Assembly: GCA_902787955.1 (NCBI GenBank)
Contig: CADAIJ010000008.1
Span: forward strand, 1 to 64,000
Direction: 5' to 3'
Length of the DNA stretch: 64,000 bases
DNA from: an uncultured Erysipelotrichaceae bacterium
GTDB taxonomy: Bacteria > Bacillota_I > Bacilli_A > RFN20 > CAG-826
The translations under genes were made by a program, and so were the position numbers. Shown in pieces: positions 48,945-55,392 of the stretch. Within the stretch, counting starts at the first letter, position 1. Each line of letters starts with the position of its first letter. The notes beneath the pieces were generated by a model, which saw only the letters and a program-made list of their open reading frames with translations, searched no databases and was not told the origin of the DNA.

Positions 48945-50069
48945 TTATTCAAAGGAATGAGTAACCTTTGGAAGGCTTTCATCAAGGAATGCTTTAAGTA
49001 ATGGATTATGATATTTTTCAGCAGATTTATGTGTCCAAGAAATATACTTAAAGCTACTTCCTATTTCGATAACGTTAACATCATCCGCAGTTAGCTCTAA
49101 GCCTTTTAAGACTTTGGTATCAACCTTAGATGTATAACTTAATTTTTCCGCTCTTTCAGCGGTGTAATATGAATCAGTAACAACATATTTTCCATCAACT
49201 TCACTAATAGTATCGTTAAAAGTAACAGACATAGATAAAATGGAAGTTCCATAGCTCTCGCCATTACCTTTAATAAGTTGGAAGGTTGGAACATAGCCAG
49301 TATTGTAGCCAAGTTCAGTATTAACCGCGTTACTTAAGCCATATTTATCTTTAAAGTTTTGCCAAGCAACTTTTGATTCTGGAGTTAATTGATTGTCTTT
49401 ATCATAAACTCTAATTCCAAGAGCCTCACAATCAAGAATATACATGTTATTCATTGAGGCGTTCTCTTTAATATATTGTCTAAGATAATGGGTATCAACA
49501 TAACCACAATCAGAGCAGTTATTGCGGGCGAAATAGATAACAGCTTCTTTTCCGGAAGCATAAATAGAATCAAGTTGAGTTAAGTTAATTTCAAAAGCTT
49601 TTGGAAGATTAACAACTTCTTCCATATATTTTTCGAAATCTTTTTGTTGTTTAAAGATATAATCTTTTTGATCATAAACACGATGTTGTTTTAATTTACC
49701 ATTTTCAAAAATAGCGAATGTTTCACGGTCAGACATAACAGTCATTCCAAAGGTATCCATTAATTTGGATTCAGCATTATAAAATTCAGTATTTTTAATT
49801 GTATAAACTTTGACATGTGTTTTTGCGATATAACCATAAAGAATGTTCTTAAATGTAGCCCAGCATGTACAGTTAGTGGACGGAGCGACAGTTATAATAA
49901 ATGTTTTTTCATCTTTCACCAGGGAAGTTAATGAATCATAACTCACATCACTAAGTGTATTATTAATCATTTGTCCGTAGGTTAAATCAATCTTCCCTCC
50001 ATTACCTCCACAGGAAGTAGCGAATGGAATAATCATAAATGGTAATAAAAATAAGACACTTTTCTTCAT
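48945..50069 (-). CDS. lipoprotein with two thioredoxin-like parts
   Basis: Lipid-anchored protein of 374 residues. The signal peptide ends in lipobox ATSC (Cys20). The N-terminal half carries an NCTCW motif (about residues 69-73) in a thioredoxin-like strand-helix context, followed by strands KTHVKVYTIKN. The second half carries NNCSDCGYVD (a CxxC-type site near residue 190) after AVIYFAR. This suggests two thioredoxin folds facing the outside, perhaps a disulfide or cysteine-handling protein. No known family was recognised. There is no Shine-Dalgarno; TATAAT on the minus strand lies 9 bases before ATG, so it is apparently leaderless. Confidence 0.7.
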   Translation of the reverse strand: MKKSVLFLLPFMIIPFATSCGGNGGKIDLTYGQMINNTLSDVSYDSLTSLVKDEKTFIITVAPSTNCTCWATFKNILYGYIAKTHVKVYTIKNTEFYNAESKLMDTFGMTVMSDRETFAIFENGKLKQHRVYDQKDYIFKQQKDFEKYMEEVVNLPKAFEINLTQLDSIYASGKEAVIYFARNNCSDCGYVDTHYLRQYIKENASMNNMYILDCEALGIRVYDKDNQLTPESKVAWQNFKDKYGLSNAVNTELGYNTGYVPTFQLIKGNGESYGTSILSMSVTFNDTISEVDGKYVVTDSYYTAERAEKLSYTSKVDTKVLKGLELTADDVNVIEIGSSFKYISWTHKSAEKYHNPLLKAFLDESLPKVTHSFE

Positions 50070-50198: not shown

Positions 50199-50227
50199 TT
50201 GCTTTTTTATTTCCTTAAACTTATTAT
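50199..50227 (+). promoter_or_regulatory. promoter of the potABCD leader RNA
   Basis: TTGCTT (50199-50204), 17-base spacer, TATTAT (50222-50227); predicted start near 50235. Confidence 0.55.
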
Positions 50228-50234
50228 TATTGCC

Positions 50235-50576
50235 GTGAAAAATAGTAGTCGTAATTTGTTTGGGACTACGTCACACCTAATTCTATCAATGTTAATGACG
50301 TTGATACTTGACCCACACTAAGAGATTAGTTGGAAAAAGCACCGGACAGCTGGTCAAATGCCGAATTAGAGATAGTGATATCTTGTTATTATTTATAAGC
50401 TCATGCTTGGAGTGAAAGTCTCCCGTACCTTGTAAGTGCATAATAAGAGTAGTAAAAGTAAGTATTTACTATATAGACTCCCAAAAAATTGCGACGTATT
50501 CTTCCGTAAAAGCGAATACTCTACGCATTAAGAAAAAGCATCTATAAGGTACAAAGAAATTTGTATCTTTTTATTT
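50235..50576 (+). ncRNA. long structured leader RNA before potABCD (unknown family)
   Basis: About 340 bases, clearly richer in G and C than the flanking spacer. Hairpins drawn by hand: GTAGTC/GACTAC (50245-50269); ATCAATGT-TAATG-ACGTTGAT (50285-50305); TTGACC/GGTCAA (50308-50313 with 50352-50357) enclosing ACTAA-GAGA-TTAGT; AGATA-GTGA-TATCT (50370-50383); GGAG/CTCC (50409-50423); TAGTAAA/TTTACTA (50450-50471); and GTATTC/GAATAC within GCG/CGC (50491-50526). Two loops are GNRA type. GGAGT (50409-50413) can pair instead with ACTCC (50478-50482). A terminator follows directly before the potA Shine-Dalgarno. There is no plausible open frame. I do not recognise it as any riboswitch, tmRNA, RNase P, SRP or 6S RNA. 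Confidence 0.65.
50548..50576 (+). terminator. intrinsic terminator between leader RNA and potA
   Basis: GGTACAAA-GAAA-TTTGTATC (8 bp, one G-T pair, GNRA loop) followed by TTTTTATTT. The potA AAAGGAG begins 2-3 bases later, so this is placed as an attenuator or as the end of an independent RNA. Confidence 0.8.
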
Positions 50577-50593
50577 AAAGGAGAGTAAGGCCA

Positions 50594-52255
50594 ATGGAAG
50601 ATAAAAATAAAGATTACATCATCGAACTTAAAGATGTTTGTAAACAATTTGGCGATAACCACGTTGTTGAACACTTTAATCTTTATGTTAAACGCGGTGA
50701 ATTCATCACCTTTTTAGGCCCTTCTGGATGTGGTAAAACCACAACCTTAAGAATGATCGCTGGTTTTGAACTTCCAACTTCTGGAACAATTTTACTTAAC
50801 GGTAAAGATATTTCTTTACTCCCTCCTTATAAAAGACCAATTAACACCGTCTTCCAAAGATACGCTTTATTCGCTCACTTAAATATCTATAACAATATCG
50901 CTTTTGGTTTAAAACTTAAAAAGATTCCTTACGAAGTAAAAGTGGTTGATAAAGAACGCATCAACGAACTTAAAGAAGAAATTAAGATGCTTCGTGATGA
51001 ACTAAATAATACAAGCTGCACTGATCAAAGATCGGAAATCGACACTAAAATCGTTGATATGCAAAACGAAATCATTGAATTAAAGAAGAATCCATCTTTC
51101 CCAGTCACAAAGTTTAGACACTTTACTAAGAAAGAAATTCAAGAAAAAGTTCGTAACGCTTTAAAAGTAGTGGACCTTGAAGGCTTTGAAAAAAGAGATA
51201 TTTCCACTCTTTCAGGTGGTCAACAACAAAGAATTGCTATTGCAAGAGCGATTGTTAATGAACCAGAAATCCTCCTTCTTGATGAACCTTTAGGAGCCTT
51301 AGACTTAAAGATGAGAAAAGAAATGCAACTCGAACTTAAAGAGATGCATAAAAAGATTGGTATCACCTTCATCTATGTTACCCATGACCAAGAAGAAGCT
51401 TTAACAATGTCTGATACAATCGTGGTTATGAACGATGGCTTCATCCAACAAATTGGTAAACCAAAACAAATCTATGATGAACCAGTTAACGCTTTTGTCG
51501 CTGACTTTATCGGTGAATCAAACATTTATACTGGTACTATCGCTCCTAATAACCAAATTCGTTTCTTAAATAAATATTGGGATGGAGATCCAGTTGATTT
51601 CCCTAAATTCCAAGTTAATGAAAAAGTTGACGTTGTCATTCGTCCTGAAGACTTTATCCTTGGTTTAAAAGATAAAGGCACAGTTAATGGTGTTATCTCC
51701 TCAAAAATCTTTAAAGGAATGCACTACGAATATATTGTTAACGTTTTAAAAGCCGAAGTAGTGGTTCAATCCACTAGTGAACTTGAAGAAGGAATTGAAG
51801 TTTCTTTAAGGGTTGATCCAACTAACATTCAAATCATGAAGAAACCATATGTTTCTAACTTCTATGATGGCTATATTACTAAAGACTATAAGATTGAATT
51901 CGCTAATGCAGAATTTAATTTTGATATCTCTTTATTATTTGCTGGATCTAAATTCAATGAAGATGAAGTTTTAGTGGATGAAAACGGTAATGAAATCGAA
52001 GTTACTGATATGGAAGTTAACGTTGAAGTCCCATTTGAAGCTTTAAATATCTCTGATGATTTAGACGCTAGCGAGATTAACGGTAACATCATCTCCATGA
52101 TTTATCATGGTGAATATTATGAAATCTTAGTTAGAACTGATGAAGAAGAAGACTTTGTCTTAAACGTTCCAGATTTATGGAATGAAAACGATAGAGTCGC
52201 TGTTATTGTTGATGAAACTAAGATTAAAGTAACTCGTAAAGGAGCTAAGAAATAA
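50594..52255 (+). CDS. potA: spermidine/putrescine ABC transporter ATPase PotA
   Basis: Cytosolic ATPase of the polyamine importer, 553 residues. Walker A is GPSGCGKTT (42-50), the Q-loop VFQRYALFAH (86-95), signature LSGGQQQR (206-213), Walker B EILLLDEP and the H-loop VTHDQEE. It is much longer than the usual 350-380. An insertion of about 65 residues (about 112-178), predicted coiled coil, lies between the Q-loop and the signature in the helical subdomain, and the C-terminal TOBE region is extended by an acidic stretch (about 430-553). I recall long PotA proteins in mycoplasmas. The Shine-Dalgarno is AAAGGAG, 9 bases before ATG. potB follows after 1 base. Confidence 0.93.
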   Translation: MEDKNKDYIIELKDVCKQFGDNHVVEHFNLYVKRGEFITFLGPSGCGKTTTLRMIAGFELPTSGTILLNGKDISLLPPYKRPINTVFQRYALFAHLNIYNNIAFGLKLKKIPYEVKVVDKERINELKEEIKMLRDELNNTSCTDQRSEIDTKIVDMQNEIIELKKNPSFPVTKFRHFTKKEIQEKVRNALKVVDLEGFEKRDISTLSGGQQQRIAIARAIVNEPEILLLDEPLGALDLKMRKEMQLELKEMHKKIGITFIYVTHDQEEALTMSDTIVVMNDGFIQQIGKPKQIYDEPVNAFVADFIGESNIYTGTIAPNNQIRFLNKYWDGDPVDFPKFQVNEKVDVVIRPEDFILGLKDKGTVNGVISSKIFKGMHYEYIVNVLKAEVVVQSTSELEEGIEVSLRVDPTNIQIMKKPYVSNFYDGYITKDYKIEFANAEFNFDISLLFAGSKFNEDEVLVDENGNEIEVTDMEVNVEVPFEALNISDDLDASEINGNIISMIYHGEYYEILVRTDEEEDFVLNVPDLWNENDRVAVIVDETKIKVTRKGAKK

Positions 52256-52256
52256 A

Positions 52257-53114
52257 ATGGAAGCGACCTTAAAACAAAAAAGAAAGACTAGTCGCTTTAA
52301 CTTTAGAGGCAGTTTATGCATGCCATACGCTGTCTTTATGGCCCTTTTTGTTATCGCTCCTCTTCTTTTAATTCTTTATTACGCTTTTACTGATGCTAAT
52401 GGAGTGTTCACTTTAGATAACTGGCAAACCGTCTTCTCTTCTCCAGAGAACTGGAAAGTAATCGGAATGACTTTTGTTATATCAATTTCTACCACTATCA
52501 TCTGTATTTTAATCGCCTTCCCAATTGCGAAGATCTTATCCAATAAGAAGCTCAATAAAAACGCTGTCTTAGTTTATATTTTCCTTCTTCCAATGTGGAT
52601 TAACTTTGTTATTCGTACTATTGGTCTTAAATCTTTAGTGGATGGCGCAACTGAATCAATGTTTGGTTATAAGCTCACTGTTAATTATCCATATATTGCG
52701 ATTATTATCGGTATGGTTTATGACTATCTTCCATTTGCTATCCTTCCTTTATATAACCAAATGCTTAAACTTGATAAGAATCAAATCGAAGCCGCTAGCG
52801 ACCTCGGAGCGAATCCTTTCCAAGTTTATGTTAAAACCATTATTCCAATGACAATTCCGGGGATTATATCCGCGGCAACGATGACATTTATGCCAACGAT
52901 GTCTTCTTATGTTATTGCGAATAAGATGTCGAATAATACAACTTTAATTATTGGTAACTTAATCCAAAACTACTTTGGAACTAGAGTTACTGATATCTCT
53001 AATCATATCGGTTCTGTCTTATCTTTAGTTATGTTAATCATCATTGGTTTCTCCATTGTTTTTGAAAAGCTTATCGATAAGAAAGGTGATGAAAAGAAAG
53101 GAGGTATTTGGTAA
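52257..53114 (+). CDS. potB: polyamine ABC transporter permease PotB
   Basis: Membrane permease of 285 residues with six segments. The cytoplasmic EAA loop that docks on PotA is EAASDLGANPFQVYVKTIIP (given here as EAASDLGANP, about residue 179). PotB and PotC form the channel through which spermidine or putrescine delivered by PotD enters. The start is 1 base after the potA stop, with GGAG inside the end of potA; potC overlaps by one base (TAATG). Length and topology are normal. Confidence 0.93.
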   Translation: MEATLKQKRKTSRFNFRGSLCMPYAVFMALFVIAPLLLILYYAFTDANGVFTLDNWQTVFSSPENWKVIGMTFVISISTTIICILIAFPIAKILSNKKLNKNAVLVYIFLLPMWINFVIRTIGLKSLVDGATESMFGYKLTVNYPYIAIIIGMVYDYLPFAILPLYNQMLKLDKNQIEAASDLGANPFQVYVKTIIPMTIPGIISAATMTFMPTMSSYVIANKMSNNTTLIIGNLIQNYFGTRVTDISNHIGSVLSLVMLIIIGFSIVFEKLIDKKGDEKKGGIW

Positions 53115-54013
53115 TGGAAAAAGTTATGTCTGAACAAGATATTAATAAAGCTTTAGCACGAAAAAGAGTAAACGCGAAAATCTTAAAAGCCTCCGCGATT
53201 GGTTTTATCTATTTAGCCCTTATCTTAATGTATCTCCCTTTAATCTATATCACCGTGTTTAGTTTTACAACTAACCAAACAACCGGTAAGTGGGGCGGAT
53301 TTAGTTTTGATAACTACACAACCTTATTTAATGTCGGTGGTAATAAAGTCGCTCAAGCAATCTGGGGTGCAGTGGGTAACACCGTAATGGTGGCCCTTGT
53401 CGCCGCGTTAATTGCAACTATCTTAGGTACTTTAGGAGCGATTGGTATTTTCTACTTAAAAAGAAAATGGATGAAAAATACTTTAGATTTCGTCACCCAA
53501 ATCCCAATTGTTAACGCTGAAATTGTTACCGCAGTTAGCTTATGTATCTTATTTGTTATTACCGCTCGTACAATCGGTTTACAAAGAAGCTTTATAACTT
53601 TAGTTATAGGTCATGTTGTTTTAGCGATTCCTTATGTTGTTATCTCGGTTAAACCAAAACTAGAACAAATGGATCCTTCTTTATATGAAGCAGCGATGGA
53701 TTTAGGAGCAACCCAAACTCAAGCTTTATTCAAAATTATTATTCCAGATATCCTTCCAGGTATCTTAACTGGTTTCTTACTCTCAATTACTTTATCGTTA
53801 GATGATTATGTTATCACCGCCTTTACTAAACCTACTTCTGGTGGCTTTGATACAATCTCTACTTACGTGGATGCCGCTACCGCAAAAGGTGGTCTTCCAA
53901 CTCAACTCAGGGCATTTACAGCGATTCTCTTCGCTGTCATATTATTCGTCATGATTTTCATGAATATCAAAGGCGTTAGAGACGCTAAAAAGATTAAAAC
54001 TAAAGGAGAATAA
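53114..54013 (+). CDS. potC: polyamine ABC transporter permease PotC
   Basis: Second permease of the importer, 299 residues, six membrane segments. The EAA loop is YEAAMDLGATQTQALFKIIIP (YEAAMDLGAT, about residue 195). ATG 53114 overlaps the potB stop (TAATG) and has AAAGGAGG about 9 bases upstream; a TTG two codons earlier is less likely. potD follows after 5 bases. Together with potA, potB and potD it forms a complete, canonical operon. Confidence 0.93.
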   Translation: MEKVMSEQDINKALARKRVNAKILKASAIGFIYLALILMYLPLIYITVFSFTTNQTTGKWGGFSFDNYTTLFNVGGNKVAQAIWGAVGNTVMVALVAALIATILGTLGAIGIFYLKRKWMKNTLDFVTQIPIVNAEIVTAVSLCILFVITARTIGLQRSFITLVIGHVVLAIPYVVISVKPKLEQMDPSLYEAAMDLGATQTQALFKIIIPDILPGILTGFLLSITLSLDDYVITAFTKPTSGGFDTISTYVDAATAKGGLPTQLRAFTAILFAVILFVMIFMNIKGVRDAKKIKTKGE

Positions 54014-54018
54014 ACAAA

Positions 54019-55392
54019 ATGAAAAAAGGTAAATTAACTTTATTTATAGTTCCATTTCTTGCTCTTGCTAATGCTTCCTTATTAAGCGCGTGTGGTCCAA
54101 AAACTGATTACACCTTAACTATTTATAACTGGGAAGATTATATTTACGAAGCCACTGATGAAATGGGGAATATTATCGTAGGTGAAAAGTCTACCGTCCA
54201 AGCTTTCAAAGAATATTTTGAAGATAAAACTGGTAAAACAATCACTATCGATTATGAAAACTTTTCCACTAATGAAGAAATGTATCAACAAATTAAATTA
54301 GGTGCTATTTCCCCTGACTTAATTTGCCCATCTGATTACATGATTCAAAAGATGGCTAACGAAGGTATGCTTGAAAAGTTCTCATATAATGAGAAAGATG
54401 ATAAATATGGTGCATCTTTAGAAAACTGGGAAAACTATCAATCTCCATTTATCCATGACCGTTTTAAAGCGGAAAAACTTGAAGATGGTAATTCTTTCTT
54501 AAGCTACGCTGTTCCATATTTCTGGGGCACAATGGGTTTCACTTATGATTCCGCTTGGTTTAATAAAGAAGATGTTAATTCCTGGGAAGCTTTATGGAAA
54601 ACATCCGCTGATGAGGGAGCTGGTAAAAAGAAATTCGAAAAACAATTCTCTTTAAAAGACTCTATGAGAGATACTTATGTCGCTGCCATCTTCCACGTTT
54701 ATAAAGATGAAATTGATGCTTTAAATAAAACTGCTTCTGATTATAACGCTAAACTCGGTCAAATCTTCAATAGATGTGATAAAGAAACAATCGCTAAAGT
54801 AGAAGCTGCTCTTAAAGGTGCTAAATACGCTGTTCAAGGTTTCGAAGTTGATGAAGGTAAAGATGATATCGTTAGAGGTTCTTATCACGCTAACTTAGCC
54901 TGGTCTGGTGATTCTGTTTATTCTATGGATAATGCTGAAGCAGCTGAGCCAGCTGTCTATCTTAATTACATCGTTCCAGAAGAAGGAAGTAACGTCTGGT
55001 TTGATGGTTGGTGTATGCCAAAAGGTTCTCAAAAAGAATTAGCAGAAGAATTCGTTAACTTTATTTCCAATCCAGAAAACGCTGCTAAATGTATGGAATC
55101 TGTCGGTTATACCTCTCCAGTAGTAGGGGATGAAATTTGGGAACTTGTTAATGATTGGTACGCTGCTGATGAAAATGAAAGTGAAACATATGAAGTCGAT
55201 TTAAGCTTCTATTTCGGTGATTCAATTGAAGAAGCCGCTCTTATTAATATTCCTCTTGAAAATGAAGGAAGACAATTCGACGCTCAATACCCAACCGAAG
55301 AAGTCTTAAATAGATGCTGCATCATGAAAGACTTTGGTAAAGCTCAAGCCGATGTTGAAGATATGTGGCTTAGAGTTAAAGCCGCTTATTAA
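54019..55392 (+). CDS. potD: polyamine-binding lipoprotein PotD
   Basis: Substrate-binding lipoprotein of 457 residues. Lipobox LSAC with Cys25 tethers it outside the membrane. The mature start LTIYNWEDYI is typical of PotD/PotF, as are CPSDYMI, NLAWSGD and FDGWCMPKGS (with Trp and Asp residues that cradle the polyamine). It is about 100 residues longer than E. coli PotD, with extra sequence at about 35-60 and 215-270. It captures spermidine or putrescine and feeds PotBC. AAAGGAG precedes the ATG. A strong terminator follows the operon. Confidence 0.93.
   Translation: MKKGKLTLFIVPFLALANASLLSACGPKTDYTLTIYNWEDYIYEATDEMGNIIVGEKSTVQAFKEYFEDKTGKTITIDYENFSTNEEMYQQIKLGAISPDLICPSDYMIQKMANEGMLEKFSYNEKDDKYGASLENWENYQSPFIHDRFKAEKLEDGNSFLSYAVPYFWGTMGFTYDSAWFNKEDVNSWEALWKTSADEGAGKKKFEKQFSLKDSMRDTYVAAIFHVYKDEIDALNKTASDYNAKLGQIFNRCDKETIAKVEAALKGAKYAVQGFEVDEGKDDIVRGSYHANLAWSGDSVYSMDNAEAAEPAVYLNYIVPEEGSNVWFDGWCMPKGSQKELAEEFVNFISNPENAAKCMESVGYTSPVVGDEIWELVNDWYAADENESETYEVDLSFYFGDSIEEAALINIPLENEGRQFDAQYPTEEVLNRCCIMKDFGKAQADVEDMWLRVKAAY

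Follow-up and report, generated by a model that had tools for sequence, protein, structure and literature searches.

Leader of the potABCD operon

What does the RNA leader directly in front of potABCD respond to, and does it stand alone in this genome or belong to a wider family? The first-pass annotation of the window, the 64,000-nt stretch analyzed here, had read this leader as a polyamine- or metabolite-sensing RNA controlling polyamine import, or else as an independent non-coding RNA. The operon has the following features:

50577–50583, + strand: Shine-Dalgarno sequence AAAGGAG of potA, from the sequence
50594–52255, + strand: potA, polyamine ABC transporter ATPase, ATG at 50594 (NCBIfam E 6e-144, below the curated cut-off)
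52257–53114, + strand: potB, permease (family models)
53108–54013, + strand: potC, permease (family models)
54019–55392, + strand: potD, substrate-binding lipoprotein (family models)

The annotated identity of potABCD was backed by these family models; the divergence of the proteins keeps the scores below the equivalog cut-offs. The window's PotA (553 aa, 50594–52255) carries an insertion of ~60 residues inside its ABC domain, which splits the matches into two stretches, as well as a long C-terminal extension. On the opposite side of the leader, a lipoprotein gene at 48945–50069 (− strand) is transcribed divergently; its product has a CxCW motif and matches nothing in Pfam. Four relatives (L033–L036) have a neighbor of this kind, likewise divergent, upstream of the leader, so the synteny is conserved.

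Window 50234–50575 is a structured, terminator-ended leader of potABCD. Its promoter was found where the first-pass annotation had placed it (+ strand; TTGCTT at 50199–50204, a 17-nt spacer, and TATTAT at 50222–50227). The −35/−10 pair agrees with the consensus at 8 of 12 positions, has a weak −35 and was missed by a promoter scan; six of six leaders compared from the window's clade nevertheless keep TTGNNN-N17-TATTAT, at an unchanged distance. The fold of 50232–50600 reached −97.8 kcal/mol, compared with −72.2 ± 5.7 for shuffled sequences (z = −4.5), and the annotated GNRA-type loops (GAGA in hairpin 50317–50330, GTGA in hairpin 50370–50383) and long-range stem TTGACC/GGTCAA (50308–50313/50352–50357) are all present. 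The leader, which had been described as free of ORFs, has no sense-strand ORF of more than 40 aa; the sense ORFs inside it span 22–40 aa, use TTG or GTG as start codon, and cross conserved helices. Two descriptions needed amendment. The GC content of the leader (0.345) and of the aptamer candidate within it (0.373) does exceed that of the upstream spacer (0.189), but barely exceeds the window average (0.321), and the terminator, correctly placed directly before the potA Shine-Dalgarno sequence, has a stem of 10 bp rather than 8.

A larger RNA, represented in Rfam by a 54-nt fragment

An Rfam scan of the whole window at gathering score returned tRNA only. The leader had been described as lacking the conserved cores of familiar riboswitch classes, and at that score this held; with a relaxed threshold, however, 54 nt of it (50309–50364) resembled RF02440, SpF59_sRNA or ldcC RNA, a family with no function assigned (27.4 bits, E 0.0045–0.0074; genome-wide E 0.0045). 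The window's 27.4 bits lie below the gathering cut-off of 37.2 bits and thus do not make it a member of RF02440; against this family, relatives that belong to the same larger RNA reach 38.8–71.5 bits, and its core, UGACC...CGGACAGC-GGUCAAAUGCCGA, is present in the window at 50309–50364. The resemblance goes halfway towards the match to a known Rfam family that the first-pass annotation had named as a refutation, but it widens the finding and does not explain the leader away.

Profile models were needed to go further, because DNA similarity had yielded one good match only, in a genus mate. The exact core CGGACAGCNGGTCAAATGCCGA occurred in 27 GTDB contigs, almost all from Ruminococcus. The genes downstream of it were speD and an Orn/Lys/Arg decarboxylase gene, followed by speE in one locus that extends far enough. 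When these loci were aligned with the window, homology extended well past Rfam's 54 nt, to AAUAAGAGUAGUAAAAG..UAUAUAGACUC, and covariance models revealed a conserved element of ~180 nt, made up of a putative 5′ H-type pseudoknot and a 3′ domain that Rfam lacks. We found this element in 16 of 245 genomes of the window's order, 13 of 219 around Paenibacillus, 32 of 216 around Ruminococcus, and 9 of 392 in a sample of the phylum, all of which are lower bounds, with the best few candidates per genome scored. Two of the nine phylum matches (L053 and L054) were false, lying in AT-rich coding DNA, and were rejected as members. A search across the class for the exact 3′ pattern gave 3 of 395; a plasmid search gave one copy, on a Paenibacillus megaplasmid, and none was found in viral contigs. 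With the window's potA-linked clade left out of the model, the window was still recovered (48.1 bits and E 3.7e-8, the next match in it having 14.6 bits), so the match is not circular. The window RNA belongs, as a divergent member, to an RNA far larger than the RF02440 fragment through which Rfam knows it.

Architecture and covariation of the aptamer candidate

The aptamer candidate and the helices that precede it in the leader are as follows:

50245–50269, + strand: 5′ hairpin GUAGUC/GACUAC (pairs checked; also in the leaders of potA-linked relatives)
50277–50283/50363–50369, + strand: outer helix P0, CUAAUUC/GAAUUAG (limited to the window's clade)
50308–50363, + strand: 5′ domain, the SpF59/ldcC part in Rfam (RF02440 match; P1 and P2 covariation)
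50308–50313/50352–50357, + strand: P1, around P2 at 50317–50321/50326–50330 (covariation, 37 sequences)
50343–50348/50359–50363, + strand: putative H-type pseudoknot, CGG-CA/UGCCG
50370–50383, + strand: P3 hairpin, AGAUA-GUGA-UAUCU (two-sided changes in 5 of 5 pairs, 68 sequences)
50386–50392/50440–50446, + strand: P4, UUAUUAU/AUAAUAA, long-range helix enclosing P5 and a hairpin at 50409–50423
50395–50399/50429–50433, + strand: P5, AUAAG/CUUGU
50447–50450/50477–50480, + strand: P8, GAGU/ACUC, 3′ edge of the aptamer candidate
50451–50456/50465–50470, + strand: P9, AGUAAA/UUUACU, with a conserved AUAUAG bulge in the P8/P9 region

Helices of the leader covary among relatives (68 sequences; 37 for the 5′ domain). 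In the 68-sequence alignment, which had been fitted to the structure, 91.4% of cells were paired compared with 31–47% in slid controls, and two-sided changes affected 124 cells, in 14 of 32 pairs, compared with 41.5 cells after shuffling. The corresponding count for the 5′ domain was 56 cells compared with 19 (37 sequences); one pair of P1 alternates among U-A, C-G and G-C, and each of the five P2 pairs shows two-sided changes in some sequences. P4, P5 and P8 are kept mostly as sequence and covary modestly. RNAalifold recovered P3, P5 and P8 unaided from the 68 sequences, and P4 and P9 as well from a window-free set. The pairs of CGG(A)CA with UGCCG, which would form an H-type pseudoknot in the 5′ domain, are nearly invariant and so count as suggested; their G50363 is also claimed by the last pair of P0. 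Long stretches such as AAUAAGAGUAGUAAAAG and AUAUAG are invariant among members.

Expression platform

Three elements of the leader bear on how the RNA could act on transcription:

50425–50433, + strand: switching strand GUACCUUGU, of which CUUGU is the 3′ side of P5 and the whole the 5′ side of the antiterminator
50544–50552, + strand: antiterminator partner AUAAGGUAC, overlapping the 5′ arm of the terminator
50546–50574, + strand: intrinsic terminator, a 10-bp stem (50546–50569) and then a U-run

An alternative pairing of GGAGT with ACTCC, put forward in the first-pass annotation, found no support in relatives and gives way to the pairing of GUACCUUGU with AUAAGGUAC. In the window, this duplex (9–10 bp) has an energy of −13.6 kcal/mol, which none of 300 shuffles equaled. 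The 3′ strand of P5, R-CUUGU-G, is likewise complementary to the 5′ arm of the terminator in Ruminococcus (CAGCUUGU with ACAGGCUG) and in other members (ACUUG with CAAGU). Across 59 loci the pairing averaged −10.7 kcal/mol, compared with −4.7 kcal/mol for shuffled arms, and was individually significant (p ≤ 0.05) in 76% of them, leaving ~24% in which it was not. Nearly all members have an intrinsic terminator between aptamer and gene. In terms of pairing potential, the duplex of the P5 strand with the terminator arm and the terminator itself are predicted to be mutually exclusive, as antiterminator and terminator. Pseudoknot-free nearest-neighbor folding gave a minimum free energy of −89.7 with other long-range pairs in place of the aptamer as drawn, and modeled energies for the window of −71.3 for aptamer plus terminator and −85.6 for the antiterminator, with no pseudoknot term; folding of this kind neither favors the drawn aptamer nor decides between the two states.

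Genes downstream of the RNA

A polyamine gene came first downstream of the RNA in 64 of the 67 loci with a readable gene (speD in 23, potA in 16, an Orn/Lys/Arg decarboxylase gene in 13, and a carboxy(nor)spermidine dehydrogenase gene in 12); RNA sequence alone had served to find the loci, which are not phylogenetically independent, and the first seed set was speD-linked. The encoded proteins belong to the adenosylmethionine decarboxylase (TIGR03331), OKR_DC_1 and PotA families, and the dehydrogenases match the carboxynorspermidine synthase model at scores under its cut-off; their relatives in the PDB are 8deb, a carboxyspermidine dehydrogenase, and 4rl6. The remaining three first genes encode peptidase lipoproteins with no obvious polyamine link. 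potA is the target in the window's family and, independently, in Clostridia.

Neither SpeD nor a carboxy(nor)spermidine dehydrogenase was detected in the window genome (94% complete), and import is therefore probably its main polyamine source. A PF01564 match in this genome was not accepted as SpeE, being weak (29 bits over 80 positions of a 366-aa frame), though a SpeE may still be encoded. In sister genera of the same family that have the dehydrogenase, the RNA sits before the dehydrogenase gene. Since the RNA is attached to import here and to the dehydrogenase there, the common denominator would be a polyamine and not decarboxylated SAM (dcSAM) or MTA, and the shared product or cargo spermidine or a like polyamine.

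Proposed mechanism and alternatives

By computation, the RNA shows conservation, covariation, association with polyamine genes, and mutually exclusive pairing potential. The occurrence of the same RNA before spermidine synthesis genes and before Clostridial potA, together with its covarying helices and its terminator/antiterminator arrangement, favors the earlier proposal of a polyamine-sensing RNA for import. We consider the leader likely to be an OFF riboswitch that acts in cis through its terminator and senses spermidine or a polyamine closely related to it; direct binding of a polyamine, the identity of that polyamine, and the OFF direction are what we infer. The ~180-nt element at 50306–50482 would be the aptamer. 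When polyamine is scarce, 50425–50433 would pair with the 5′ arm of the terminator at 50544–50552, the terminator would be blocked, and potABCD would be transcribed. Bound polyamine would instead stabilize P4/P5 and neighboring helices and lock the switching strand in P5, upon which the terminator could form and transcription would stop at ~50575, releasing an RNA of ~340 nt.

A riboswitch of the same build could read another signal of the pathway, such as SAM, dcSAM, MTA, arginine, lysine, ornithine or Mg2+, and SAM and basic amino acids are indeed used by SpeD and the decarboxylases. We regard this as unlikely: potABCD is the target in genomes without SpeD and the dehydrogenase, where dcSAM or MTA would be uninformative, and no Mg2+ or amino-acid transport gene came first among the 67 loci. 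The long invariant AAUAAGAGUAGUAAAAG and AUAUAG are as compatible with protein binding as with a ligand, and the leader might then be bound by a polyamine-sensing repressor or antiterminator; but distant Bacillota share an elaborate fold of several helices and a probable pseudoknot, and no co-located regulator gene was seen in the stretches read, which makes such a protein-bound leader quite improbable.

An independent, trans-acting small RNA is what the Rfam name SpF59_sRNA implies; pneumococcal F59/SN20 was reported as an sRNA, and a terminated leader would itself be a stable RNA of ~340 nt. Nevertheless, members lie in the same orientation directly before genes that are nearly always polyamine genes, with a terminator in between, and an aptamer complementary to the terminator arm is a feature of RNAs that act in cis, so we hold this reading to be very improbable. 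Least credible is a translated uORF or leader peptide that attenuates by ribosome stalling. Polyamine control through uORFs is known in other systems, but there is no sign here of a conserved ORF, the frames of 22–40 aa run across conserved helices, the variation is compensatory, and the indels of the alignment are not restricted to multiples of three.

Relation to known RNAs

In S. pneumoniae, F59 (82 nt) and SN20 lie between SP0915 and SP0916; SN20 is a transcribed region of ~318 nt with a predicted promoter and terminator, before SP0916, and was kept as an sRNA by its authors, who speculated on an FMN switch (PMC2887815, PMC3395615). Judging from RF02440 and this literature, F59/SN20 appears to be the same RNA. 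RF02440/F59/SN20/srn235 shares with the window RNA the UGACC..CGGACAGCnGGUCAAAUGCCGA core, a 5′ domain able to form a pseudoknot, and a position before a polyamine-type decarboxylase gene, whereas the Rfam model, 54 nt long and named as an sRNA, lacks the most conserved 3′ domain (~95–165 nt) and the expression platform.

The spermidine riboswitch of Salvail et al. (2023), the sole validated one that we found, is a SAM-I variant whose published alignment has 13 representatives. It resembles the RNA described here in lying before ldcC, speE and speB and, under the mechanism proposed above, in acting as a terminator-based OFF switch and in serving polyamine homeostasis (PMC10853860). The present RNA, however, has another architecture, a far wider spread, and transport genes among its targets, and no SAM-clan match was found in the leader (E ≤ 10) or in its relatives (gathering scores). 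The potE (WRC-18-1) and odc1 motifs are likewise structured RNA candidates before polyamine genes, but are set apart by their descriptions: potE is confined to Veillonella and environmental sequences, and odc1 is uORF-linked and alpha-proteobacterial (PMC8632094).

The kind, a riboswitch, is known; the class appears undescribed, no paper found in the open-access literature having treated this RNA as a riboswitch. We see in it a strong candidate for a polyamine riboswitch class that is both new and widespread; the window's copy would be a divergent, potABCD-linked member. We lean towards regarding it as a previously unrecognized class of the Bacillota, a large pseudoknotted RNA serving both spermidine synthesis and polyamine import, one 54-nt corner of which has been catalogued as an sRNA. 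The paper on the first validated spermidine riboswitch expected further polyamine riboswitch classes (PMC10853860), and the RNA described here is a concrete and abundant candidate for one, with four gene contexts. If this holds, it would account for the balance that many gut Bacillota strike between importing and making polyamines, re-interpret the pneumococcal "sRNA", and offer a large RNA for studying how an RNA can single out a small polycation that has a weak affinity for RNA of every kind.

Variant members

The dehydrogenase-linked members of the window's order (L038–L046 and L049) differ in the sequence of the 5′ domain or are missing it, and are without the canonical RF02440 core. By eye, they seemingly have GGC/GCC for CGG/CCG with the topology kept, hinting that the 5′ module is exchangeable. 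A Clostridial potA-linked subtype (L097, L099–L103) has a short ACG/CGU pairing in place of P9. Three divergent members (L048, 1501–1658; L051, 1501–1651; L050, 1501–1684) lie before the genes for C39-like and M28 peptidase lipoproteins.
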